From the NCBI GenBank assembly GCA_947364365.1, contig CANASP010000012.1, forward strand, positions 1 to 62,670: a stretch of DNA of 62,670 bases, given 5' to 3'. The translations under genes were made by a program, and so were the position numbers. Source of the DNA: an uncultured Alistipes sp. GTDB lineage: Bacteria > Bacteroidota > Bacteroidia > Bacteroidales > Rikenellaceae. A model generated the notes under the pieces. The model saw only the letters and a list, made by a program, of their open reading frames with translations. It searched no databases and had not been told where the DNA came from. Shown here piece by piece: positions 7,071-31,861 of the stretch. Within the stretch, counting starts at the first letter, position 1; every line of letters begins with the position of its first letter.

Positions 7071-7238
7071 TTATTCCGAAACGATCGCCTCGCTCGGGCA
7101 GACGCCTGCGCAGGTGCCGCAGTCGATGCACTTGTCGGGATCGATCACGTAGATATCGCCGGCCGAGATAGCCTCTACCGGGCATTCGCCGATGCAGGTG
7201 CCGCAAGCGACGCACGAGTCAGTGATTTTGTAAGCCAT
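7071..7238 (-). CDS. Small 2[4Fe-4S] ferredoxin
   Basis: 55 residues from MAYKITDSC. Two complete clostridial-type cluster motifs: CVACGTCIGECP and CIDCGTCAGVCP, each CxxCxxCxxxCP, so two [4Fe-4S] clusters are expected. It would be a soluble low-potential electron carrier in the cytoplasm, for example for pyruvate:ferredoxin oxidoreductase. The internal ATG at 7236-7238 was preferred over the longer frame because the family starts there and the upstream part is promoter and leader. It has its own promoter embedded at the end of serS. Confidence 0.95.
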   Translation of the reverse strand: MAYKITDSCVACGTCIGECPVEAISAGDIYVIDPDKCIDCGTCAGVCPSEAIVSE

Positions 7239-7282
7239 TGTCGTAAGGGTTGTTTGTGAATGTTTGTGTGTTTTTGCAAAAG

Positions 7283-7314
7283 CAAATATAAGGATATTAT
7301 TTGATAATATCAAA
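7283..7314 (-). promoter_or_regulatory. Promoter of the ferredoxin gene, overlapping the serS 3' end
   Basis: On the minus strand TTTG (complement of 7311-7314), 20 bases, TATATTTG (complement of 7283-7290). The -33 box lies inside the last codons of serS (serS stop at 7297-7299), and the -7 box just after it. Exact consensus spacing. Confidence 0.85.
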
Positions 7315-8568
7315 ACCCGTGTAGGGAATCAGCGCCTCGGGGATGCGGATGCCCTCGGGGGTCTGGTTGTTCTCGAGCAGCGCGGCGACGATGCGCGGCA
7401 GGGCCAGCGACGAGCCGTTGAGCGTGTGGGCCAGCTGCGTCTTCTTGTCGGCGTCGCGGTAGCGGAGCTTGAGGCGGTTGGCCTGGAACGACTCGAAGTT
7501 CGACACCGACGACACCTCCAGCCAGCGCTTCTGCGCCTCGGAGTAGACCTCGAAATCGTAGGTCAGCGCCGAGGTGAACGACATGTCGCCGCCGCACAGC
7601 CGCAGGATGCGGTAGGGAAGGCCCAGCGAGCGGACGATCCCCTCGACATGGGCCACCATGCCGTCGAGCGCCTCGTAGGAGCGGTCGGGCAGCGCGAGCT
7701 GCACGATCTCCACCTTGTCGAACTGGTGCAGGCGGTTCAGGCCGCGGACATCCTTGCCGTAGGAGCCCGCCTCGCGGCGGAAGCAGGGGGTGTAGGCGGT
7801 CATCTTCACCGGGAAATCCTTCTCGTCGAGGATCACGTCGCGGAAGATGTTCGTCACGGGAACCTCGGCCGTGGGCACGAGGTAGAAGTTGTCGACCGTG
7901 GCGTGGTACATCTGCCCCTCCTTGTCGGGCAGCTGGCCCGTGCCGAAGCCCGAGGCCTCGTTGACCATCACCGGAGGCTCGACCTCCAGATAGCCCGCCC
8001 GCGTGTTGCAGTCGAGGAAGTAGTTGATCAGCGCGCGCTGCAACCGCGCGCCCTTGCCCTTGTAGACGGGGAAGCCGGCGCCGGTGAGCTTCACGCCCAG
8101 GTCGAAGTCGATGATGTCGTACTTGCGGGCCAGCTCCCAGTGGGGCAGCGGGTTCTCGGGCAGGGCGGTGTAGTTCTCCACGAGCTTCACCACGAGGTTG
8201 TCCTCGGCCGTGCGCCCTTCGGGGACGATCTCGGCGGGGAAGTTGGGCAGCGTGACCAGCTGCGACTGCAACTCGTCCTGGACGCTCCGCGACTCCTCCT
8301 GGAGGCGTGTCGACTGCTCCTTGAGCTGGGCCACGAAGCGCTTGTGCTCCTCGGCCTCCTCGCGGCGGCCCTGGCTCATCAGCGTGCCGATCTCCTTGGC
8401 GGCCTTGTTCTGGGCGGCGAGCGTCGTGTCGAGCTCGGCCTGGAGCGCCTTGCGGCGGTCGTCGAGGGCGATGATGCGGTCGATGACGGGCGCCGCGTCG
8501 ACGCCCTTCTTGGCGAGCTTACGTGCGGCGGCCTCGCGGTCGTCGCGGATTTGCTTGAGTGTAAGCAT
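7297..8568 (-). CDS. serS: Seryl-tRNA synthetase
   Basis: 423 residues, standard length. The N-terminal long coiled-coil tRNA-binding arm (about residues 1-105, MLTLKQIRDDREAAARKLAK..., with LDDRRKALQAELD and RFVAQLKEQSTRLQEE) precedes the class II catalytic core. Motif 2 is visible as CFRREAGSYGKDVRGLNRLH, and motif 3 as NGSSLALPRIVAALLENNQ. It charges tRNA-Ser with serine in the cytoplasm. The ATG at 8566-8568 begins the arm; the frame is open further upstream only as a shadow of the sulfatase. Its last codons contain the -33 box of the next gene's promoter. Confidence 0.97.
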   Translation of the reverse strand: MLTLKQIRDDREAAARKLAKKGVDAAPVIDRIIALDDRRKALQAELDTTLAAQNKAAKEIGTLMSQGRREEAEEHKRFVAQLKEQSTRLQEESRSVQDELQSQLVTLPNFPAEIVPEGRTAEDNLVVKLVENYTALPENPLPHWELARKYDIIDFDLGVKLTGAGFPVYKGKGARLQRALINYFLDCNTRAGYLEVEPPVMVNEASGFGTGQLPDKEGQMYHATVDNFYLVPTAEVPVTNIFRDVILDEKDFPVKMTAYTPCFRREAGSYGKDVRGLNRLHQFDKVEIVQLALPDRSYEALDGMVAHVEGIVRSLGLPYRILRLCGGDMSFTSALTYDFEVYSEAQKRWLEVSSVSNFESFQANRLKLRYRDADKKTQLAHTLNGSSLALPRIVAALLENNQTPEGIRIPEALIPYTGFDIIK

Positions 8569-18126: not shown

Positions 18127-18699
18127 TCAGAACGGATAGTAGATGACGATGCCCGCCGCGGCCGAGAGCGCGATGAGCAGGATGGGGTTGACCTTGCGCC
18201 ACGAGCCGATCATCACGCCGCCGAAGAGCGCCCAGCTCCACGCGTCGATGAAGTTGCGGTCGCCCGGTGCTTCGCTGTGGGGGAAGATCAGCAGCAGCGC
18301 CGCCGCGGCGATCATGCCGACGACGACGGGCCGCATGCCGCGCATGGCCCCCTCGACCAAGCGGTTGTCCTTGAGCCGCAGGAAGAAGCGCGCCACTGCG
18401 ATCATCAGCGTGAGCGACGGCAGACAGACGGCGAAGGTCGCGACGACCGACCCCAGCAGGCCGTAGGCCGCGCCGCCCAGCTGCGATCCGACGGTGTAGC
18501 CCACGTAGGTCGCCGAGTTGATGGCGATCGGTCCCGGGGTGATCTGTGATATGGCCACGATGTCGGCGAACTGGGCGTTGGTCATCCAGGCGTGGCGGAC
18601 GACCACTTCGTTCTGGATGAGCGAGAGCATGGCGTAGCCGCCGCCGAAGCCGAAGAAGCCGATCTTGAGGTAGCTGACGAAGAGTTCTAACAGTAACAT
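18127..18699 (-). CDS. CHR-family (chromate transporter) half protein, second of pair
   Basis: 190 residues, a single CHR domain as in short-chain chromate transporters, which work as pairs. Family signature FFGFGGGYAMLSLIQNE near the N-terminus, then ISQITPGPIAINSATYVGY and several transmembrane helices ending IVIYYPF. Inner-membrane transporter; characterised relatives export chromate, but many CHR proteins in anaerobes have no known substrate. It follows the first CHR gene on the same strand after a 205-base gap that contains a REP-like element and an AT-rich repeat, so it may be transcribed with it or separately. Confidence 0.88.
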   Translation of the reverse strand: MLLLELFVSYLKIGFFGFGGGYAMLSLIQNEVVVRHAWMTNAQFADIVAISQITPGPIAINSATYVGYTVGSQLGGAAYGLLGSVVATFAVCLPSLTLMIAVARFFLRLKDNRLVEGAMRGMRPVVVGMIAAAALLLIFPHSEAPGDRNFIDAWSWALFGGVMIGSWRKVNPILLIALSAAAGIVIYYPF

Positions 18700-18889: not shown

Positions 18890-18920
18890 TTTAATTTTTC
18901 ATTCTTAATTTTTAATTTTC
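18890..18920. repeat. AT-rich dispersed motif overlapping the CHR gene 3' end
   Basis: TTTTTCATTCTTAATTTTTAATTTT-type sequence, the complement of the AATTAAGAATTAAAAATTA motif. The last codons (KIKN) and the stop of the upstream CHR gene at 18905 lie inside it. The same motif occurs at about 36.07 and 46.74 kb, and a variant at 32.1 kb. Confidence 0.7.
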
Positions 18921-19447
18921 CTCGCCATCCTTAGCTCCCAGGCGATGCCCGCCGCAGCGGCCATCGCGAGGATGGCCACGGGCGACCAGCCGAGCCCCCA
19001 GATCGCGAGGGCCGCGAGGACGATTATGCCGTACATCGCCGCGTGCATGCCGTGCGCGAGCGACAGCACGGGGCCGATGATGAGCGCCACGACGGCCGGG
19101 CGCATCCCCTTGAAGGCGGCGTCGACCACGGCGTTCTGGCGGATGCCGGCGAAGAAGAGGGCAATCAGCAGGATGATCGTGAACGACGGCACCACGGCGC
19201 CCAGCAGCGCCGCCACGGCGCCCCGCATGCCGCGGACCTTGTAGCCCACGAAGACCGACGTGTTGACGGCGATCGGCCCCGGAACCGACTGGGCCAGGGT
19301 CAGCAGGTCGAGAAACTCGCGGCGGTCGATCCAGCGTCGCCGGTCGATGATCTCGCGCTCGATGATGGGGATCATGGCGTAGCCGCCGCCGAAGGTGAAG
19401 AGCCCGATCCGGAAGAACGAGGCGAAGACGGTGCGCAGCGAGACCAT
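18905..19447 (-). CDS. CHR-family (chromate transporter) half protein, first of pair
   Basis: 180 residues from MVSLRTVFASFFRIG. Single CHR domain: LFTFGGGYAMIPIIEREII, TLAQSVPGPIAVNTSVFVGYK, then helices LLGAVVPSFTIILLIALFF and ALIIGPVLSLAHGM. It starts 2 bases after the stop of the ferredoxin/NuoB-like fusion gene, so it is almost certainly in the same operon as the hydrogenase-4-like complex. The C-terminus is defined by an AT-rich repeat. Substrate unknown; chromate export is the textbook role, but the context suggests another anion or an ion-coupled function. Confidence 0.88.
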   Translation of the reverse strand: MVSLRTVFASFFRIGLFTFGGGYAMIPIIEREIIDRRRWIDRREFLDLLTLAQSVPGPIAVNTSVFVGYKVRGMRGAVAALLGAVVPSFTIILLIALFFAGIRQNAVVDAAFKGMRPAVVALIIGPVLSLAHGMHAAMYGIIVLAALAIWGLGWSPVAILAMAAAAGIAWELRMARKIKN

Positions 19448-19449
19448 TC

Positions 19450-20223
19450 CTACCCGCGCGTTTTCTTGCCCAGCAGGGTCCGTATGCCGTCGATGAAGAC
19501 CATCGGGTGCGAGGGGTTGCCCGGCAGCCACAGATCGACGCGGTGGCGCTCGAAGAACGAGCGGTCGACGGCGCGGCTTTCGGCGAACAGCCCGCCCGAG
19601 CAGGCGTCCGTGCCGCACGCGACGAGGATCTTGGGCTCGGCCACGGCCTCATAGCAGATCTCCAGCGCCTCGGCCATGTTGGCCGAGACGGGTCCCGAGA
19701 CCACTACGCCGTCGGCGTGACGCGGCGAGGCGGTGAAGCCGATGCCGAAGCGCCCCAGGTCGAAGTTGACGTTGCCCGTGGCGCCGAGCTCCATCTCGAC
19801 CGAGGCGTCGCCGCCGGCCGAAACCTCGCGCAGCTGGAGCGCCTGGCCGAAGTAGCGGCGGATTTCGGGCCGGACGTCGGCGGGGTCGAACTTCACGCAG
19901 CGGTCGCCCGGGCGGACGACGAGCCCTTCGCGCGTGGGCGCTCCCATGCGGTAGTCGTTGGTGAAGCGGATCGAGCGGGGGGCCCGGCGGGCGCATTCGC
20001 CGCAGAAGAGGCAGCGTCCCAGGTCGAGCGCGAAGGGGGCCGTGGCGATGGCGCCGGTGGGGCAGATCGCGGCGGCCGCCGCGAGCGCCTCGCGCTCCGC
20101 GCTGTCGGCGGGTTCGGTCAGCTCGGGCCGTCCGCGGAACTCCTCGGTGAGCTCCACGGCGTCGAGATCGGGGATGGCCTGCCGGCCGTGGCTCAGCAGG
20201 ACCTTTATCTTCGGAAATATCAT
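19450..20223 (-). CDS. Fused ferredoxin-like (HyfH/NuoI) and NuoB/HycG-like subunit lacking the N2/proximal-cluster cysteines
   Basis: 257 residues. Residues ~45-95 are a ferredoxin-like domain: only Cys54 (ICPTGAI) remains of the first motif, the second is C71LFC74GEC77 with Ala81 in place of the fourth cysteine. By the usual pairing this leaves exactly one complete [4Fe-4S] cluster (Cys71, 74, 77, 54). Residues ~130-255 align with the HycG/NuoB small subunit through RFGIGFTASPRHAD, GPVSANMAEAL and LPGNPSHP. The CGGCNGC segment of HycG is AGGDASV (136-142), the next ligand position is Asp206 (GTDACSGG) and the last is Asn236 (PGNP), so the proximal/N2 cluster cannot form normally. Peripheral subunit of the membrane complex. 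The next gene upstream ends 27 bases away. Confidence 0.88.
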   Translation of the reverse strand: MIFPKIKVLLSHGRQAIPDLDAVELTEEFRGRPELTEPADSAEREALAAAAAICPTGAIATAPFALDLGRCLFCGECARRAPRSIRFTNDYRMGAPTREGLVVRPGDRCVKFDPADVRPEIRRYFGQALQLREVSAGGDASVEMELGATGNVNFDLGRFGIGFTASPRHADGVVVSGPVSANMAEALEICYEAVAEPKILVACGTDACSGGLFAESRAVDRSFFERHRVDLWLPGNPSHPMVFIDGIRTLLGKKTRG

Positions 20224-20250
20224 AGGGAGGCTATTTTCAATTTTCCATCG

Positions 20251-21780
20251 TTACAGGTCATGCCCGCAGTAGGAGAGGTTGAAGCTCTTGTTGCAGATCG
20301 GGAAGTCGGAGATCCCCTCGCCGCGCACGGCCAGCGCCAGCGCCAGCCAGTTGTGGAGGCTCGGGTCCTTCGCGCGGTAGGCAGCGATGCGCCCCTCGGC
20401 GTCGGTCACCGCCACGTGGCATATCTCGCCGCGCCACCCTTCGACAAGCCCTACGGAGAGCGACGAGGGGGCCAGCGGCGCCTCGTAGTCGGGGGCCGCG
20501 CAGGGACTCTCTCCGGCGGCGTATTTCTGTTCGAATTCGGCGACCAGGCGGTCGATGTAGGCGGCCGAGCGGGCCACTTCGCGGCTGCGGACCGCCAGAC
20601 GGGCCATGACGTCGCCCTGACGCATGACGACGGGTTCGTGGTGCAGCTCCCGGGCATAGACGCCCCAGGGATGCGAGGTGCGGATGTCGCGCGCCAGACC
20701 GCTGGCGCGGGCCGCCTGGCCGACGCCGCCGATGCGCTGCATCTCGTTCTCGGCGACGATGCCGCACTGCTCGAAGCGCGCGAGCAGCGTCGGCGAGCTC
20801 TCGATGTCGCGGCGCACCTCGTCGTAGCGGCGCGCGATCTCGGCCACGTTGCGGCGGATCATCGCCGCCTTTTCGGCCGTGAGCGGGTGGTCGGTGCCGT
20901 GGGGCCGGACGAGCCCCTTGCCGAAGCGGTTGCCGCACCACGCCTGTGTGGTGTTGATCGTCATCGTGCGCAGCGCCTCCGAGGCCACCTGCCCCAGCTG
21001 GTATCCCACGTCCATCGACAGCGCTCCCGTGTCGGCGATCTGCATCGCCATGCGTTCGAGTTCGAGCGCCACGGCCCGCTCGCGGTCGAGCTCGGCGGGG
21101 CGGGGACGGCCCGAGAGCTTCTCGATGGCTTCGGCGAAGGCCTCGGCGTGGGCCACGGCGCTGTCGCCGGCGACGGCCTCCGCGAGACACGCCTGCCGCA
21201 GGCGGTTGTGCGTCGCGGCGAAGGCCTCCTCGACGCCGCGGTGCTGGTAGCCCAGCGCGATCTCGAGGTGGAGCACCTGCTCGCCGTTGCAGATGAAGCG
21301 GAAGGCTCCCGGCTCGATGATGCCGGCGTGGATCGGACCCACGTTGACCTCGTGGAGCGACCCGCCCTCGATCGAGTAGAAGGGGTAGTTGTCCATCGAG
21401 CTGCGGCGGTCGAAGCGGTCGTGGGGGAAGCGCAGGGGTTTCTCCCACGGCATGGCGTCGAACCGCACGCCGTAGCGCTCGGCGATGTCGCGCTCGAAGG
21501 GGTGCATCTGGGCGTGGCGCGCCGTGAGCGACGGCAGCGGCATGTCGTCGTAATACTCCATGGCGTGCGACGCGACGAGCACCCGCCCCTCGGCGTCGTC
21601 GAGCAGCAGCAGGAAGAAGCGCAGGCGTCCGCCGTCGGGCAGGGCGAAGTAGTGGGCCACGTGGTAGCGCGGCTCGGCGAGCCGCGCCGCGACGTCGTCG
21701 TAGAAGGCGGCGTAGGAGACCTCGGGAATGTCGGCCAGAGGGATCGACGGGGCCGTATTGTCGGTTACGTAGTAGTTCAT
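20251..21780 (-). CDS. HycE/HyfG-like large subunit (NuoC-NuoD fusion) without NiFe ligands
   Basis: 509 residues. The N-terminal ~125 residues resemble the NuoC 30-kDa domain (FERDIAERYGVRFDAMPWEK). Residues ~140-509 are the NuoD/HycE domain (VNVGPIHAGIIEPGAFRF, LGYQHRGVEEAF, GALSMDVGYQLG). In [NiFe] hydrogenases two CxxC pairs hold the metal. Here the first is A204GDS207 (in AVAGDSAVAH) and the C-terminal one is DFPICNKSF with a single misplaced Cys496, so no NiFe site is possible. This matches the Ehr (energy-converting hydrogenase-related) class rather than a hydrogenase. Its start overlaps the upstream gene by ATGA. Redox partner and reaction are unknown. Confidence 0.9.
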   Translation of the reverse strand: MNYYVTDNTAPSIPLADIPEVSYAAFYDDVAARLAEPRYHVAHYFALPDGGRLRFFLLLLDDAEGRVLVASHAMEYYDDMPLPSLTARHAQMHPFERDIAERYGVRFDAMPWEKPLRFPHDRFDRRSSMDNYPFYSIEGGSLHEVNVGPIHAGIIEPGAFRFICNGEQVLHLEIALGYQHRGVEEAFAATHNRLRQACLAEAVAGDSAVAHAEAFAEAIEKLSGRPRPAELDRERAVALELERMAMQIADTGALSMDVGYQLGQVASEALRTMTINTTQAWCGNRFGKGLVRPHGTDHPLTAEKAAMIRRNVAEIARRYDEVRRDIESSPTLLARFEQCGIVAENEMQRIGGVGQAARASGLARDIRTSHPWGVYARELHHEPVVMRQGDVMARLAVRSREVARSAAYIDRLVAEFEQKYAAGESPCAAPDYEAPLAPSSLSVGLVEGWRGEICHVAVTDAEGRIAAYRAKDPSLHNWLALALAVRGEGISDFPICNKSFNLSYCGHDL

Positions 21781-23180
21781 AACGTAGCGATTTCGGTGAT
21801 GATGCGTTGCAGCAGCGCGGGCTGCCAGAGACCCATGACGAGGGCGATCGCCAGCAGCGAGAGGGCCGACCACGACAGGGCCTTGTCCACGCCCGAGGGA
21901 TGCAGCTGGTCCTGGTTGGGCTGGTAGCAGAGGCGGATCATGCGCGCGCAGAACGAGTAGATGACGATGCAGGTGAGCAGCAGGATGGCTGCGAGCACCC
22001 ACCAGCGCTCCGCGGCGGCGGCCTCCGAGAGGATCATCAGCTCGGAGACGAACAACGGCGAGGGCGGGAAGGCGACCAGCGCCACCATGCCGATCAGCAG
22101 CCCCACGGCCCCCACGCGGTTGATGCGCATGTAGTCGCCCAGGCGGTTGATGCGGTAGCCGTCGTAGACCTGGCGCACGACGCCCATCTGGAGGAAGAGG
22201 CTGCTCTTGACGAAGGTGTGGCAGACGACGTGGAAGACCGCGGCCCAGACCCCCGCGCCGCCGATCCCCAGACCGATGGCGGCGATGCCCATGTTTTCGA
22301 CCGTGGAGTAGGAGAGGAAGCGCTTGTAGTTGTTGGTGCGGCGCAGGAACAGCGCGCCGACGGCCAGCGAGAGCAGACCGGCGATGAGCAGCACGCCCCG
22401 CACCCAGCCGAAGACTTCGGTCGAGGCGTAGAGCCGGTAGATGCGCAGGATCGCCAGGAAGCCGGCGTTGACCAGTCCCGTCGAGATGAGGGCCGAGGCG
22501 GGGGCCGGCGCGGCGAAGTTGGCGTCGACGCCCACGGTGTAGAGCGGGAAGAGCTCCATCTTGCAGCTGTAGCCGCAGAGTATGAGCAGGAAGGCGATCT
22601 TCAGATAGAGCGGGTTGCTCGCGGTGAGGGCCGTGGCGACGGCTTCGTAGCCCAGCGACTCGCCGCGGGTGGCCGAGGCCAGCAGCAGGATGCCGAGGTA
22701 GGCCATGGCGATGCCCGTCGAGCAGACGAACAGGTATTTCCACGCCGCCTCGAGCGCCGGGGCCGTGCGGCGGTAGTAGATCAGGCCGGCCGAGCAGAGC
22801 GTGGTGGCTTCGAGGAAGACCCACGTGAGGGCCAGGTTGTCGGCGAAATAGGCGCCGGCGATGGCCGTGGTGAGCAGCAGCAGCAGCCCCGTGTAGGTGC
22901 GCAGGTGGTTGAATCGGCTCTCTTTGAGATAGGCCTCCGAGTGGTGGAAGGCGTAGAGCGAGACGACGGTGAGCAGCAGGTAGAAGAGCGTGCCCGGCGC
23001 GTCGAAGACGAAGAGGCCGCCTGCGTGGCGGGTGCCGGCCAGGCCGCCCCAGCAGAGCGCGCCCAGCAGCGCGATCTGCACGGCATAGAAGAGCAGCCCG
23101 GCGGCGTAGAGCGCCCGGCGGCTCCGCACGACGAAGGCCGCCGAGGCGACCGCGATGGATGCGATGAGGTAGAGTATCAT
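21777..23180 (-). CDS. Antiporter-like membrane subunit (HyfF/NuoN-like)
   Basis: 467 residues, about 14 predicted transmembrane helices. Belongs to the proton_antipo_M family shared by complex I NuoL/M/N, Mrp antiporters and HyfB/D/F. Typical pieces: FFADNLALTWVFLEATTLCS-like helix with conserved glutamate (LTWVFLEATTLCSAGLIYY), the GYSCKMELFPLYTVGVDANF lysine helix, and NNYKRFLSYSTVENMGI. Expected to translocate H+ or Na+ in the inner membrane when the peripheral arm turns over. It starts 4 bases after the HyfE-like gene and overlaps the next gene by four bases (ATGA). Confidence 0.9.
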   Translation of the reverse strand: MILYLIASIAVASAAFVVRSRRALYAAGLLFYAVQIALLGALCWGGLAGTRHAGGLFVFDAPGTLFYLLLTVVSLYAFHHSEAYLKESRFNHLRTYTGLLLLLTTAIAGAYFADNLALTWVFLEATTLCSAGLIYYRRTAPALEAAWKYLFVCSTGIAMAYLGILLLASATRGESLGYEAVATALTASNPLYLKIAFLLILCGYSCKMELFPLYTVGVDANFAAPAPASALISTGLVNAGFLAILRIYRLYASTEVFGWVRGVLLIAGLLSLAVGALFLRRTNNYKRFLSYSTVENMGIAAIGLGIGGAGVWAAVFHVVCHTFVKSSLFLQMGVVRQVYDGYRINRLGDYMRINRVGAVGLLIGMVALVAFPPSPLFVSELMILSEAAAAERWWVLAAILLLTCIVIYSFCARMIRLCYQPNQDQLHPSGVDKALSWSALSLLAIALVMGLWQPALLQRIITEIATL

Positions 23181-23184
23181 GGGA

Positions 23185-23814
23185 TCAATCCTTTACACGG
23201 GTGAGCGAATCGGCGTCGTCCGCATGGATCTTGCGGTCGATCTTGGTGAAGAACATGCCGAGCATGAGCACCGACATGAGGATGTCGAGCAGGATGGCGG
23301 CGTTGATCAGCAGCGGCATCTCGACGCCGATGGCCGTCGAGAAGAGGAAGACGCCGTTCTCGATCGTCAGGAAGCCGACCATGTGCGAGAAGATGCGCGA
23401 GCGCATGACGATCAGCACCAGACCGCTCAGGAGGGCGTAGAGCGCCACGCCGAAGAAGACCAGGTCGGTGGTCGAGTCGGCGATCAGGTAGGTGACCGAG
23501 GCGCTCGTGACCAGCGCGGCGACCGATAGCAGCAGCGACTGGAACTGCGATGTGCCGGAGCTCTTCACGCGGCTGATGCCCGTCTTGCGGATCACGGCGA
23601 AGAGCAGCGCCGGGACCAGGATGCCCTTGAAGAGCAGCGTCTCGACGGCGATGAAGGTGAGCTCGGCGGGGCTGATGGCGTGCAGCCGCATGAGGGCGAT
23701 GGCGAAGAGCAGCCACCCCTGCAAGGCCATGATCGAGGCGAAGTTGCGGAAACGTTCGGTGATGGCCAGGTAGACGAGCGAGATGACGTAGAGCAGGATG
23801 AGCGGGAGTATCAT
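23185..23814 (-). CDS. HyfE-like small membrane subunit
   Basis: 209 residues from MILPLILLYVISLVYLA, with about six hydrophobic helices. It matches the HyfE type, whose C-terminal half resembles NuoK (FGVALYALLSGLVLIVMRSR, GFLTIENGVFLFSTAIG, LLINAAILLDILMSVLMLGM). NuoK-like subunits take part in ion translocation next to the antiporter subunits. Start chosen at the ATG that overlaps the HyfC-like stop (ATGA); the longer open frame upstream is a shadow of that gene. Confidence 0.88.
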   Translation of the reverse strand: MILPLILLYVISLVYLAITERFRNFASIMALQGWLLFAIALMRLHAISPAELTFIAVETLLFKGILVPALLFAVIRKTGISRVKSSGTSQFQSLLLSVAALVTSASVTYLIADSTTDLVFFGVALYALLSGLVLIVMRSRIFSHMVGFLTIENGVFLFSTAIGVEMPLLINAAILLDILMSVLMLGMFFTKIDRKIHADDADSLTRVKD

Positions 23815-24728
23815 TCGAGTACGATGATGTTGAGACGGAGCAGGTAGGCGGCGAAGAAGACCAGCGCGGCCATCGCTGCGATGATGAGGATGAAGGTGGT
23901 GTTGCGCACCAGTTTGTTGCGGGCCTGGGTCGATTCGACCACGCCGATCGAGAGCCCCGCCAGGAGGACGGAGAGCGGCGCGGCGATCCACCAGCGGCCG
24001 CCCAGCGGCGCTGCGACGGCGTTGGCCGCGAGCATCGCCAGCGCGGCGCTCTTGAGCCATCCGGCGATCTTGATCATCGCCATGTCCACGCCCGCGTAGT
24101 CGAGACACATCACCTCGTGGATCATCGTCAGTTCGAGGTGGGTGCGCGGGTCGTCGACGGGCACGCGGCCGCTCTCGGTGAAGAGGATGCGCACGAGGAT
24201 GTAGGCCACGAGCAGCAGGAGGACGGCCAGCTGGAGGTCGCCCGTGGCGTCGGCGGCGAAGATGCGTGCGAAGGAGGTGTAGCCCGAGACGAGGGCCAGC
24301 GTGGCCGCCGTGAGCATCAGCCCCGGCTCGACCAGCGCGCCGTAGAGCGCCTCGCGGCTGGCGCCCATCCCCTCGAAGGGGCTGCCGGTGTCCATCGCGG
24401 CCAGAACGAGCGCGAAGCGGCCCAGGGCCAGCGTATAGGCGAAGGCTACCAGGTCGCCGTCGAAGGCGATCGCGGGCCGCAGGTCGCCCACGGGAATCAT
24501 CAGCGCGGCGACGATCGCCGAGGCCAGGTAGACCGAGGGGGCCGTGCGGAAGAGGGCCGACACGGTGGTGGAGTAGACGGCGCCCTTGCGCAGCTGGAGC
24601 CGCACGTCGTAGAGGTGCTGGGCGAAGCGGATGCCCTTGCGGCCGGCCAGGCAGGCGCGCGTGCGGGCGATGAGCCCCGGGATGGCGAGGGCCGCCGCGA
24701 GAAGCAGGAGGGTAGTGAAGAGTGCCAT
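23811..24728 (-). CDS. HyfC/NuoH-like membrane anchor subunit
   Basis: 305 residues, about eight transmembrane helices. Signatures of the NuoH/HyfC/EchB group: SPFEGMGASREALYGALVEP and the loop THLELTMIHEVMCLDYAG. In complex I and group 4 hydrogenases this subunit connects the peripheral redox arm to the antiporter-like subunits and carries conserved acidic loops, which are present here. It starts 2 bases after the HyfB-like gene stop. Confidence 0.92.
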   Translation of the reverse strand: MALFTTLLLLAAALAIPGLIARTRACLAGRKGIRFAQHLYDVRLQLRKGAVYSTTVSALFRTAPSVYLASAIVAALMIPVGDLRPAIAFDGDLVAFAYTLALGRFALVLAAMDTGSPFEGMGASREALYGALVEPGLMLTAATLALVSGYTSFARIFAADATGDLQLAVLLLLVAYILVRILFTESGRVPVDDPRTHLELTMIHEVMCLDYAGVDMAMIKIAGWLKSAALAMLAANAVAAPLGGRWWIAAPLSVLLAGLSIGVVESTQARNKLVRNTTFILIIAAMAALVFFAAYLLRLNIIVLE

Positions 24729-24730
24729 CG

Positions 24731-26719
24731 TCAGAGTAGGTTAAGGATCGACAGAAGGAATACCAGACCCAGGAAGGCCAGGGCGAAGAGCAGGTAGTGG
24801 TTGATCTTGCCCGTGCGCAGGCGCATGGCCCGCATGTTGATCTGGCGGAGCAGCTCGACCCACCAGGCCGAGAAGAGGCGGTCGATGCGGTCCTTGCGGC
24901 GGATGCCGAAGTTGTGGGCCGCGGGGAAGATCTCGCCCTTGTCGACCGTGCACCCCTCGATGCGGTTCTGCGTGAGATGCGCGGCGATCGATTCGAGTCC
25001 TTCGGAGAACGATTCGCCCGTGTACTGCATGCGGGTGTTCACCGCCGTGAAGCCGCAGCCCCACGTGGGCCCCTCGGCGACGGTGCGGCCCCTCAGGGCG
25101 CGGCGGCGCAGCCAGACGAGCAGGCCGACCACGGCGATGACGAGCCAGGCCGTGCGGCCCGCGGCCGAGAGGGTGGGCCAGAGGGTCAGTCCCACGGCGT
25201 CGGAGGGCCAGGGGAGGAAGAACCCGGCGGCGCGCACGACCGCGGCGGTCGCCGCGCGGGGGAAGAGCCCCACCAGGAGGATGCCCGCCAGCGGGAGTGC
25301 CATGGCGGCGATGCGGCCGTTGTCGACCTCCTGCGCCTCGGCCACGCAGTGGGTGCGCGGGGCGCCGAGGAAGACCGTGCCGCAGAGTTTGGTGAAGGCC
25401 AGCAGCACGATGCCGCCGATCAGCGCCAGCCCCGCCAGCGCGGCGGCCGAGGCGAGCGGGTCGCTGCCCGAGGCGATGCCGTCGAACAGTCCCAGGTAGA
25501 TCAGCAGCTCGGAAACGAAGCCGTTGAGGGGCGGCAGGGCGCAGATCGCCGCGGCGCCCGTGAGCGAGAGGATCGCCGTCAGGGGCATGTGTTTCGCAAG
25601 GCCGCCCAGCGCGTCGAGCGACGTGGAGTGGGTCTGCGAGAGGATGTTGCCCGCGCCGAAGAAGAGCAGCGACTTGAAAAACGAGTGGTTGAGCGTGTGG
25701 AGCAGCGCGCCGGCGATGCCGCACAGCGCCATGGGCTGGTTGCCCGTGCTCTTGCCCAGCGCGGCCACGCCCACGCCGATCAGCACGATGCCGATGTTCT
25801 CGATCGACGAGTAGGCCAGCAGCCGCTTGACGTCGTTCTGCGCGGCGGCGAGGATCGCGCCCCACAGGCCGGTCGCCAGACCGGCGAAGAGCAGCACGAA
25901 GCCGGCCGTGCGCAGCACGGGCAGCTCGCCCAGCGCCGCCGTCGTGCGCAGGATGCCGTAGACGCCCGTCTTGATCATCACGCCCGACATGAGCGCTGAG
26001 ACGTGCGACGGGGCCGCGGGGTGCGCCTCGGGGAGCCAGACGTGCATGGGGAAGAGACCCGCCTTCATGCCGAAGCCCAGGAGGAAGACCGTGAAGAGCG
26101 GCAGGGCGGGCTGCGCGGCGAAGCAGTCGGCCAGCGCGGCGAAGTCGGCCGAGCCGGTGGCGGCGTGGAGCCGCACGAAGCCCACGACGAGCAGCGCGAA
26201 GCCGATGTGCATCATGATGAGGTACGACAGGGCGGCCCGCACCACCTCGCGCCGTTCGGCGTCGTAGAGGATCAGCAGGAACGACGCCACGGTCATCAGC
26301 TCCCAGCAGAAGAGAAACGAGTAGCCGCCGTCGGAGCAGACCACGCCCAGCATGGCGTAGCACATCGTGGCGAGGGCCGTGTAGTGGAGCGAGACGTGGA
26401 CCGACGACTTGTGTGCGAGCGTGTGGCGGAGGTAGCCCCGCGAGTAGAGGAGCGAGGCGACGGAGCCCACGGCGATGAGCACGACGAAGAGGGCCGAGAG
26501 CGGGTCCAGCGACCCCGAGTCGCCGCCGAAGAGGGTGCCCGGGGTGGTCCACAGCCGGTGCGTCGTCCCGTCGGCGAGCACGCCGACGGCCTCTGCGGCA
26601 AGCCGCAGTGCGCCGACGCCCACCAGCGCCAGCGCCGTCCATGCCTTGGCGCGCAGCGGCACGGCGAAGATCAGCGCCGTCAGCAGGGCCAGGGCCAGTA
26701 AGGAGTAGATGAAGAACAT
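24731..26719 (-). CDS. HyfB/NuoL-like antiporter subunit
   Basis: 662 residues with about 16 transmembrane helices. Proton_antipo_M core with the conserved helix glutamate (YSFLFCWELMTVASFLL) and the lysine segment FGMKAGLFPMHVWLPEAHPA followed by HVSALMSGVMIKTGVYG, then QNDVKRLLAYSSIENIGI. The C-terminal part (MQYTGESFSEGLE) is typical of HyfB rather than NuoL. Together with the HyfF-like protein this gives two antiporter subunits; no HyfD equivalent or HyfA ferredoxin is present. First gene of the complex, 12 bases downstream of rsmE. Confidence 0.92.
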   Translation of the reverse strand: MFFIYSLLALALLTALIFAVPLRAKAWTALALVGVGALRLAAEAVGVLADGTTHRLWTTPGTLFGGDSGSLDPLSALFVVLIAVGSVASLLYSRGYLRHTLAHKSSVHVSLHYTALATMCYAMLGVVCSDGGYSFLFCWELMTVASFLLILYDAERREVVRAALSYLIMMHIGFALLVVGFVRLHAATGSADFAALADCFAAQPALPLFTVFLLGFGMKAGLFPMHVWLPEAHPAAPSHVSALMSGVMIKTGVYGILRTTAALGELPVLRTAGFVLLFAGLATGLWGAILAAAQNDVKRLLAYSSIENIGIVLIGVGVAALGKSTGNQPMALCGIAGALLHTLNHSFFKSLLFFGAGNILSQTHSTSLDALGGLAKHMPLTAILSLTGAAAICALPPLNGFVSELLIYLGLFDGIASGSDPLASAAALAGLALIGGIVLLAFTKLCGTVFLGAPRTHCVAEAQEVDNGRIAAMALPLAGILLVGLFPRAATAAVVRAAGFFLPWPSDAVGLTLWPTLSAAGRTAWLVIAVVGLLVWLRRRALRGRTVAEGPTWGCGFTAVNTRMQYTGESFSEGLESIAAHLTQNRIEGCTVDKGEIFPAAHNFGIRRKDRIDRLFSAWWVELLRQINMRAMRLRTGKINHYLLFALAFLGLVFLLSILNLL

Positions 26720-27560: not shown

Positions 27561-29714
27561 ATGAAACGTACATTCGGTTTATTTCTTTCGCTTATGCTGC
27601 TTATGACCGCCGCATCCTGCACCTCGCCGCAAACCGCCGGCGAGAATCCGCTTCTGGGCGAGTGGACGACGCCTTACGGCGTGCCGCCCTTCGACCGGAT
27701 CCGTGCCGAGCACTTCCTGCCCGCCTTCGAGCAGGGCATGTCGCTCATGAACGCCGAGATCGGCGCCATCACCGCCTCCGGCGACGAGCCCACGTTCGAG
27801 AATACGATCCTGGCCTACGACGATGCGGGCCGTTCGCTCGAGCGAACGTCGCTCGTCTTCGGCATGCTGTGCGCGGCCGAGACCAACGATGACTTGCAGG
27901 CGCTCCAGGAGGAGCTGATGCCCCGCCTGGCGGCCCATGCCGACCGCATCCGTCTCGACGGCAAGCTCTTCGAACGGGTGAAGTCGGTCTACGACCGCCG
28001 CGCGTCGCTGGGGCTCGACGCTGAGCAGCTGCGTCTGGTCGAGAAGATCTACAACGATTTCGTGCGTTCGGGCGCGCTGCTCGACGCCGAGAAGAAGGCG
28101 CGGCTGGCCGCCATCAACGAGGAGCTGTCGGTGGTGGCCGTCCGCTTCGGCAACAACATCCTGGCCGAGAACAACGGCTTCCGCCTCGAACTTGGGGCCG
28201 ACCAGCTGGGCGGCCTTCCCGTGGGCGTGCGCGACGCCGCGCGCGAGAAGGCGCAGTCGCTGGGCCTGGGTCGCGACAAGTGGGTCTTCACGCTCCACAA
28301 GCCCAGCCTGCTGCCCTTCCTGACCTATTCGACCGAGCGCGCGCTGCGCGAGGAGCTCTACAAGGGCTATCTCAACCGCTGCGCCAACGGCGACGAGCAC
28401 GACAACAAGCAGCTCATCAACGACTTCATCCGCCTGCGCACGGAGAAGGCCCACCTGCTGGGCTACCCCTCCTATGCCGCCTATGTCGTAGCCGACGAGA
28501 TGGCCCGGACGACCGACGCGGTCTACGCGCTGCTGGAGGAGATCTGGACCCCGGCGCTCCGCCGCGCCGAGGGCGAGCTGGCCGAGATGGAGGAGATCTT
28601 CCGCAAGGATTTCCCCGACGGGACCTTCGAGTCGTGGGACTGGTGGTATTATGCCGAGAAGCTGCGCAAGCAGAAATACGACCTCGACGAGGAGATGCTG
28701 CGTCCCTACTTCGCGCTGGAGAATGTCCAGAGCGGCATCTTCTTCCTGGCCAACCGCCTCTACGGCATCACCTTCCGGCCCATTTCGGTGCCGGTCTACC
28801 ACGCCGAGGCCTCGGCCTACGAGGTGCTCGACGCCGATGAATCGCACCTGGGCGTGCTCTACTTCGACTTCTTCCCGCGCGACGGCAAGAGCCAGGGCGC
28901 CTGGTGCGGCAACTACGTCGAGCAGAGCTACGTCGACGGCGAGCGCGTGGCGCCCGTGGTGTCGATCGTCTGCAACTTCACCCGCCCGACGGGCAACACC
29001 CCGGCGCTGCTCTCGCTCGACGAGACCGAGACCCTCTTCCACGAGTTCGGCCATGCGCTCCACTTCCTCTTCCACGACGTGAAGTACCGCGGTCTGACGG
29101 AGGTCGAGGGCGACTTCGTCGAGCTCCCCTCGCAGGTGATGGAGAACTGGGCCTTCGAACCGGAGATGCTCCGCAACTATGCGCTGCACTACCGCTCGGG
29201 CGAGGTCATTCCCCAGCATCTGGTCGAGAAGCTGCGCCGCAGTACGCTCTTCAACCAGGGCTTCATGACCACCGAGCTCATCGCCGCGGCCCTCTCGGAC
29301 CTCGACATCCACTCGACGACCGAATACGCACCGTTCGACCCCGCGGCCTTCGAGCGCCGGGCGCTCGTCGAGAAGCGCGGCCTGATCCCCCAGATCGAAC
29401 CCCGCTACCGCTATCCCTACTTCTCGCACATCTTCGACGGCGGCTATTCGGCCGGATACTATTTCTATACGTGGGCCGCGGTGCTCGACAAGGATGCCTT
29501 CGACCGCTTCAAGTCGAGCGGCGACCTGTTCAACCGCGAGCTGGCCGACCGTTTCCGCCGCCGGCTGCTCGCGCGCGGCGGTTCGGCCGACGGCATGACC
29601 CTCTACCGCGACTTCTGCGGCTCGGATCCCGACAAGACGGCGCTGCTCGTGGCCCGCGGCCTGGTGGAGCGCCCCGCGCAGGTCGAGGATCTGCCTGCGA
29701 AACTGGAGAAGTAG
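27561..29714 (+). CDS. dcp: M3 family metallopeptidase (dipeptidyl carboxypeptidase-like), lipoprotein
   Basis: 717 residues. The signal peptide ends in a lipobox (MTAASCTS), so it is anchored in the cell envelope. Zinc motif HEFGH in FHEFGHALHFLF near residue 492, and typical M3A context: WWYYAEKLRKQKYDLDE, GVLYFDFFPRDGK, FVELPSQVMENWAFEPEML and FSHIFDGGYSAGYYFYTWA. Cleaves dipeptides from the C-terminus of peptides, or oligopeptides in general, in the periplasm. It is followed 32 bases later by a paralogue of the same architecture, a tandem duplication. The DCP versus oligopeptidase A specificity is not decided by these motifs. Confidence 0.93.
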   Translation: MKRTFGLFLSLMLLMTAASCTSPQTAGENPLLGEWTTPYGVPPFDRIRAEHFLPAFEQGMSLMNAEIGAITASGDEPTFENTILAYDDAGRSLERTSLVFGMLCAAETNDDLQALQEELMPRLAAHADRIRLDGKLFERVKSVYDRRASLGLDAEQLRLVEKIYNDFVRSGALLDAEKKARLAAINEELSVVAVRFGNNILAENNGFRLELGADQLGGLPVGVRDAAREKAQSLGLGRDKWVFTLHKPSLLPFLTYSTERALREELYKGYLNRCANGDEHDNKQLINDFIRLRTEKAHLLGYPSYAAYVVADEMARTTDAVYALLEEIWTPALRRAEGELAEMEEIFRKDFPDGTFESWDWWYYAEKLRKQKYDLDEEMLRPYFALENVQSGIFFLANRLYGITFRPISVPVYHAEASAYEVLDADESHLGVLYFDFFPRDGKSQGAWCGNYVEQSYVDGERVAPVVSIVCNFTRPTGNTPALLSLDETETLFHEFGHALHFLFHDVKYRGLTEVEGDFVELPSQVMENWAFEPEMLRNYALHYRSGEVIPQHLVEKLRRSTLFNQGFMTTELIAAALSDLDIHSTTEYAPFDPAAFERRALVEKRGLIPQIEPRYRYPYFSHIFDGGYSAGYYFYTWAAVLDKDAFDRFKSSGDLFNRELADRFRRRLLARGGSADGMTLYRDFCGSDPDKTALLVARGLVERPAQVEDLPAKLEK

Positions 29715-29746
29715 CGTTTCCGATCATCCGTTATCCCGATCATTCC

Positions 29747-31861
<2,115 letters not shown>

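Follow-up and report, generated by a model that had tools for sequence, protein, structure and literature searches.

An Ehr-type relative of complex I in Alistipes without the N2 cluster site, and with two carboxylates in its place

A six-gene cluster related to hydrogenase-4 and complex I

We analysed a 62,670-nucleotide stretch of DNA from an uncultured Alistipes sp. (contig CANASP010000012.1 of assembly GCA_947364365.1; the whole stretch is called the window here), in which six genes on the minus strand, spanning 26719..19450 in the order B-C-E-F-G-H/I, encode relatives of the subunits of hydrogenase-4 and complex I. Four of them form a membrane arm. B (24731..26719, 662 amino acids) is a HyfB-like antiporter-like subunit that matched PF00361 at 185 bits and the NCBIfam profile for hydrogenase-4 subunit B (PRK06521) at 491 bits, under that profile's cut-off of 667, and F (21777..23180, 467 amino acids; PF00361, 137 bits) is its HyfF-like counterpart. 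C (23811..24728, 305 amino acids; PF00146, 78.5 bits) is NuoH/HyfC-like. E (23185..23814, 209 amino acids) was assigned as HyfE-like by synteny and a weak match to the hydrogenase 4 membrane subunit profile PRK11492 (50 bits, cut-off 136), while a Pfam scan of this protein gave no match. The peripheral arm consists of G (20251..21780, 509 amino acids; PF00346), a NuoCD/HycE-like large subunit without NiFe and quinone ligands, and H/I (19450..20223, 257 amino acids; PF01058), a small subunit in which ferredoxin and NuoB are fused; structure models of both had high confidence and the expected folds. C/E and F/G share ATGA overlaps, and the remaining gaps measure 2 nt (B-C), 4 nt (E-F) and 27 nt (G-H/I). 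Open reading frames and family matches thus upheld the original prediction, made from the sequence of the window, of a tightly spaced set of these six genes at these positions, and its description as a non-hydrogenase, Ehr-like gene set held as well.

The available text of published accounts describes Ehr complexes as lacking NiFe ligands and as having no known function (PMC6349859, PMC10284858, PMC4378227, PMC7304191, PMC7894505). The Alistipes complex resembles them in its antiporter-like, NuoH-like, HyfE-like, large and small subunits and in a large subunit without NiFe-binding cysteines, the criterion given in the consulted parts of PMC10284858 and PMC4378227. It differs in that these accounts, as far as their available text goes, speak only of the loss of NiFe ligands, whereas here the whole N2 site is also gone, with two carboxylates instead and one Fe-S site.

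The source genome is a draft of 2.15 Mb in 38 contigs with 87% completeness, and genome-wide absences are provisional. Within it, B and F were the only PF00361 proteins and G was the only NuoD-like protein found, and two pairs of Rnf/Nqr-type genes lie elsewhere. HyfA and HyfD equivalents had been called missing; for HyfD this stands, given that the draft shows no PF00361 protein besides B and F, and for HyfA it stands for the cluster, to which the search was limited. The NADH module NuoEFG was not seen in the cluster, with no genome-wide search made for it, and a promoter and terminator scan gave no signal exceeding that of shuffled sequences.

Charged residues and histidines are strongly retained in the membrane arm. 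Conservation of at least 95% was found for E140, K219, K250, H226, H233, H341, H345 and K349 of B (143 sequences), for E126, E134, E185, R188, D192, D193, H197, E199, H204, E205, D210 and D215 of C (149 sequences) and for E124, K207, H321 and K325 of F (153 sequences). We take the roles of the Glu, Lys and His residues, and of the charged residues of the NuoH-like subunit, to be those of their complex I counterparts. The ratio of nonsynonymous to synonymous substitution rates (dN/dS) in five Alistipes pairs was 0.19-0.54 over the six genes, with H/I lowest in every pair, and all six genes are under purifying selection. Together these observations indicate that the pump side is under selection to work, and the conserved channel residues agree with the predicted ion-translocating membrane arm.

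Lost ligands and the vacated N2 site

Alignment of G to HycE and MbhL placed VAGDS at the first NiFe motif (L1, VCGIC or MCGIC in these proteins), residues 204-206 (A-G-D) lying at 21163..21171 on the minus strand, and alignment to HycE placed FNLSY at the second (L2, LDPCY in HycE), within residues 490-509, ISDFPICNKSFNLSYCGHDL (20254..20313, minus strand), which are the C-terminal end of the protein. The predicted absence of NiFe cysteines from G was thereby confirmed. Group 4 [NiFe] hydrogenases presumably carry a C-terminal extension that is cleaved in maturation; G instead stops at the motif. What we take to be the quinone-binding His and Tyr of NuoD correspond to I155 and G205 in G when it is aligned to two Nuo sequences (L126 and L127). 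The HRGxE motif is retained as H180-R181-G182-V183-E184, and R181 is conserved in both N2-less and N2-intact classes. We compared 164 N2-less and 18 N2-intact large subunits, the latter from Bacteroidota, and found D206 of G in all of them (164/164 and 18/18). The C-terminal 20-residue signature is also conserved, and the former NiFe/quinone pocket is marked by H151, E156, D206, N497-K498-S499, S503-Y504 and D508.

In H/I, the sole Fe-S site lies at the N6b position (19993..20064, minus strand) and is formed by C54 (20064-20062), C71 (20013-20011), C74 (20004-20002) and C77 (19995-19993), in agreement with the single site predicted for the peripheral arm. The N2/proximal site is vacated (19516..19809, minus strand). 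MbhJ CNGC aligns to DASV, so that the first two cysteine positions are occupied by D139 (19809-19807) and V142 (19800-19798), and alignment to N2-intact relatives placed D206 (19608-19606) and N236 (19518-19516) at the other two. The predicted absence of the N2/proximal cluster is thus supported by both alignments.

The state of the four N2 positions was scored across 256 loci with a small subunit, which gave 207 unique sequences and, after removal of two Nuo rows, 205. All four N2 cysteines are present in 19 of these and 186 are N2-less (104 of them from Rikenellaceae, the family of the window, with partial rows including L089, L123 and L250), so N2 loss is not inherent to the Ehr-type complex. 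Site 1 is Asp or Glu in every N2-less sequence (186/186) and site 3 in all but one (185/186). Exactly two acids occur at the four former cysteines in 184 of these 186 related sequences, in 149 of 151 after thinning at 90% identity and in 50 of 52 at 70%; the exceptions are L194, with three, and L216, with one. The commonest states in the family combine two acids with V or I at site 2 and A, T or N at site 4. The remaining cluster site is constrained as well: C54, C71, C74 and C77 are invariant in 104/104 family sequences, and the four-cysteine N6b site is present in 184/186 N2-less sequences, the other two being without an aligned ferredoxin part. E143, E145, R132, R158, R168 and H169 in the NuoB part of H/I are invariant in both N2 classes.

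The number of Fe-S sites varies further among relatives. A simple pattern picked out a further ferredoxin-type Cys motif in 15 of the 19 N2-intact sequences, for about three clusters, and not in the other four; a NuoB-type small subunit with no ferredoxin part occurs in several proteobacterial relatives. In the unfused relative L194, all six genes lie on one contig of 8.4 kb, from a genome split into about 700 contigs, and the small subunit (7225-7752) has no ferredoxin domain, one of the four N2 cysteines and two cysteines overall. No recognisable Fe-S site was found on this contig, a single observation, and a second relative of this type was not seen among the matches listed from 393 order genomes, the others being of the fused type or lower-scoring and NuoB-like.

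Set against known systems, the complex lacks what defines the group 4 [NiFe] hydrogenases (Hyf/Hyc/Mbh), namely the four NiFe cysteines in L1/L2 and the proximal [4Fe-4S] cluster. E. coli formate hydrogenlyase/hydrogenase-4 (7z0s, 7z0t) likewise differs from it in having NiFe ligands and an N2-type proximal cluster, and the Alistipes cluster is without HyfA and HyfD, with no formate dehydrogenase gene seen beside it. It shares with complex I (Nuo) the folds of NuoD and the NuoB part, the arginine of HRGxE and, in the membrane arm, the channel residues, but it has no N2, no quinone His/Tyr and no NADH module in the cluster, and two antiporter-like subunits versus three. A further comparison is with the N2-intact fused relatives (Bacteroidota L161-L173 and L256 of a Variovorax plasmid), which share the fusion, the G signature and, where flanks sufficed, all six genes, but retain all four N2 cysteines and differ also in the additional ferredoxin-type motif noted above and in their neighbouring genes. 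A literature search that did not reach the founding Ehr papers or most subscription papers found no earlier description of N2-less Ehr members, and we provisionally regard N2 loss as a new feature of the known Ehr kind.

Distribution of the N2 state and neighbouring genes

Fusion-type matches with E < 1e-60 occurred in 62 of 150 family genomes, counting the window's own genome and including a few partial ones. At E up to 1e-30, 89 of 393 genomes of the order and 17 of 395 of the phylum had a match; 86 of the 89 were taken into the analysis, G410, G507 and G514 being left out. Among the best 80 of 154 confirmed loci, 78 were titled Alistipes or Rikenellaceae, and the others were L046 (titled 'Bacteroidales bacterium') and L065 (a short contig labelled Clostridia). 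The named strains Alistipes muris DSM 112343 and Alistipes sp. An66 are among the N2-less loci. N2 was intact in all 13 Bacteroidota loci L161-L173 from outside the order, and in four order genomes (L246-L249); L160, outside the order yet N2-less, clusters with order sequences. Eight distinct small subunits were named and from outside Bacteroidota, of which six are N2-intact and two N2-less.

Trees were built from homologues not labelled Ehr. On a 108-row tree from which the four N2 columns were excluded, and in which 10 of loci L001-L111 were retained, the N2-less label needs two changes. A constraint placing the N2-less rows of Bacteroidales type in one clade was not rejected by the approximately unbiased (AU) test (p = 0.475; L194, L122 and the Nuo row excluded). 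A 41-row tree with named plasmid-borne relatives requires five state changes, and no fewer than four are imposed by its starred branches. A single origin of the N2-less state across the entire set of rows, which we also considered, conflicts with these branches. The presence of N2 in hydrogenases and complex I suggests that it is ancestral; if so, the simplest reading is that the Bacteroidales set, L194, Allomeiothermus silvanus (Deinococcota) and Mycobacterium branderi (Actinomycetota) each lost N2, and that L246 adds another change. At least two acids stand at the former N2 cysteines in L194, in Allomeiothermus and in M. branderi alike. As a rough guide that assumes independent lineages and background composition, the chance of acids at the sites is 0.074 per lineage and 3e-5 for four.

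The relatives also vary in the organisation of the cluster. Plasmid pMESIL01 of Allomeiothermus silvanus carries two copies of an N2-less cluster (L257, L260) with identical small subunits, and a Variovorax plasmid carries two differing Ehr-type clusters close by one another (L256, L259), one fused and one NuoB-only, both N2-intact. A second HyfB-like gene stands in tandem (B-B-C-E-F-G-H/I) in L182, L183, L190 and L193. In seven Alistipes loci (L053, L056, L057, L058, L059, L061 and L063) a pectinesterase-type gene (PF01095 in L061) lies between G and H/I.

In the window, two halves of a chromate transporter (both PF02417, minus strand) follow the cluster at 18906..19447 and 18127..18699; the first begins 2 nt past H/I and is probably co-transcribed with it. 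Two adjoining M3-family peptidase genes (PF01432) lie upstream of the cluster on the plus strand (window 27561-31861). Across loci, chrA is directly downstream of the cluster in 42/91 N2-less loci of Rikenellaceae and in 0/61 other N2-less loci. The recurrent neighbours in Rikenellaceae are rsmE, a gene like the window's M3 peptidase, chrA, a sodium:alanine symporter and a pectinesterase, and they look like a reflection of local gene order. No donor or acceptor genes were found among recurrent neighbours (43 loci, and 168 loci with three genes on each side), most single-locus neighbours being unidentified. Inside the cluster or at most three genes away from it, SulP and/or EIIA-Ntr occurred in 7/14 N2-intact loci (L177, L178, L179, L180, L181, L185 and L195) and in 0/152 N2-less loci; in L185 one SulP-STAS-EIIA protein is encoded between G and H/I. 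The loci are related, and this shift of neighbours with N2 state hints, and no more, that function has changed.

Possible functions of the complex

The original prediction had assigned the complex an electron donor and acceptor of unknown identity. This is only partly supported, and an acceptor may not exist, because the NiFe ligands, the quinone dyad and N2 are all gone and no recognisable path leads from cluster to pocket. A precedent is available in complex I of Yarrowia, which after a change of the HRGxE arginine lost N2 and, according to the consulted part of the report, remained native-like without quinone reductase activity, although the surroundings of the empty site were disordered and the membrane contained less of the complex (PMC8042128). 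That complex I without N2 assembles yet cannot reduce quinone, on the same partial account, further weakens the expectation of a donor and an acceptor.

We consider there to be an even chance that this is an Ehr-type ion-translocating complex whose peripheral arm has no wired electron path, in which two acids would replace the charge of N2 and the work done would be ion-coupled and non-redox. The two carboxylates would stand in for the charge of an oxidised [4Fe-4S](Cys)4 cluster, about 2− net, and D139 and D206 of H/I would pair with R181 of G, the second-sphere arginine of N2, in a putative salt bridge that would keep the G-H/I interface ordered in the absence of a cluster. Such a charge substitution predicts a working complex that is not wired. 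The remaining N6b cluster, isolated, may then be a structural or redox-sensing element, and the membrane arm may conduct protons or Na+ in a manner linked to a binding event or a non-redox reaction in the pocket of G, the complex being driven by, or consuming, an ion gradient rather than being driven by electron transfer. The step from a missing wire to a non-redox function is one that we infer. More broadly, and somewhat more tentatively, the relatives may represent a branch of the complex I superfamily whose function needs no electron transfer, in which redox cofactors were shed stepwise (from about three clusters to two and then one, and apparently to none in a single relative) and the carboxylate pair evolved repeatedly as a substitute for the charge of N2.

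Several observations weigh against this account. The gene set supplies no source of energy for pumping besides the gradient itself, and a redox role would explain the strict conservation of the one cluster no less well. Among the 186 N2-less sequences, 67 retain Cys at site 2 and 96 have Asn at site 4, and the vacated site may hold a substitute cofactor. The pocket signature does not extend to all relatives, being largely absent from M. branderi and altered around D206 of G in Allomeiothermus. On the evolutionary side, 184 sequences with two acids are not 184 events, the tree cannot separate gain from loss, and the exact placement of L194, Allomeiothermus and M. branderi is unsure, as all three have long branches. 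L246, also a long branch, is N2-intact inside the N2-less Bacteroidales, and may have regained N2, received it by transfer or been misplaced.

The main rival places a substitute centre at the vacated N2 site. Electrons would pass from reduced ferredoxin through the N6b cluster to a metal bound by D139, D206 and neighbouring groups of H/I, a flavin or another cofactor and on to an acceptor in the pocket of G, with the energy driving the membrane arm. The invariance of C54, C71, C74 and C77 wherever the ferredoxin part is present, and that of the NuoB-part residues in both classes, would be expected of such a redox pump; the two carboxylates, together with Asn or Cys in many sequences, could bind metal, and the two Rnf/Nqr-type gene pairs show that the cell has other membrane redox complexes. 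However, the commonest states in the family leave just two acids, a poor site for an electron-carrying metal, the quinone dyad and the NiFe ligands are gone, L194 seems to be without even the N6b site, and no recurrent donor or acceptor gene adjoins the cluster. We judge a redox pump to be unlikely, while taking it as the most serious competitor to a complex without a wired path.

A gradient-driven uptake of CO2/bicarbonate or another anion, similar to that of DAB2 or the carbon-concentrating NDH-1 and with a hydration or binding site in G, appears improbable. DAB2 is a possible working analogue in that, in the available text of its description, a complex I-type proton subunit is coupled to CO2 hydration, a non-redox chemistry (PMC13144422); its cytoplasmic subunit DabA is carbonic-anhydrase-like on the same partial account, and no DabA-like family was matched among the nine window proteins scanned. 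The SulP and/or EIIA-Ntr genes in or near half of the 14 N2-intact clusters and the chromate-type anion transporter after H/I in 42 of 91 Rikenellaceae loci would suit an anion role, but no SulP/EIIA gene lies within three genes of any of the 152 N2-less clusters. Matches to beta-carbonic anhydrase were found in 15 of 150 Rikenellaceae genomes, nine of them under 60 bits, including that in the window's own genome. This rarity would suit such an uptake system, but G003, G024 and G039 have both the complex and the enzyme, the window's genome has the complex and its weak match, and G060, G084, G091, G097, G099, G101 and G114 have neither. No mutual exclusion of beta-carbonic anhydrase and the complex was apparent among the matches listed for the 150 family genomes, gamma and alpha types not having been searched, and a CO2 role gained no support from this co-occurrence.

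Slightly less credible still is an Mrp-like antiporter that exchanges Na+ or K+ for H+ in pH or ion homeostasis, in which G and H/I would be a scaffold or a redox-regulated lid. B and F retain a Glu/Lys/His pattern that we presume to be antiporter-like in its roles, and no other proteins of this type were found in the draft genome. The latter also departs from the MrpA-G set, of which the small subunits were not searched. The conserved pocket residues of G, including the C-terminal 20-residue signature, suggest more than a scaffold, and C, whose NuoH-like type is presumably not part of Mrp, is kept with its charged residues. An assembly error, pseudogene or local degeneration, conceivable for a window from an incomplete 38-contig draft, is contradicted by the comparative data, with 186 different N2-less small subunits, of which 151 remain after thinning at 90% identity, loci in named strains, synteny and purifying selection.

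If a complex without a wired electron path is the correct account, ion coupling in the superfamily would be separable from redox chemistry even with a NuoD/NuoB arm present. How complex I couples electron transfer at N2 and quinone to distant pumping is an old open question, and a conserved N2-less relative that retains pump, interface and pocket would be a natural control for separating the contribution of the charge of N2 to coupling from that of its electron. For Alistipes and other Bacteroidales, which are common bacteria, the label 'Ehr, function unknown' would become open to concrete tests.

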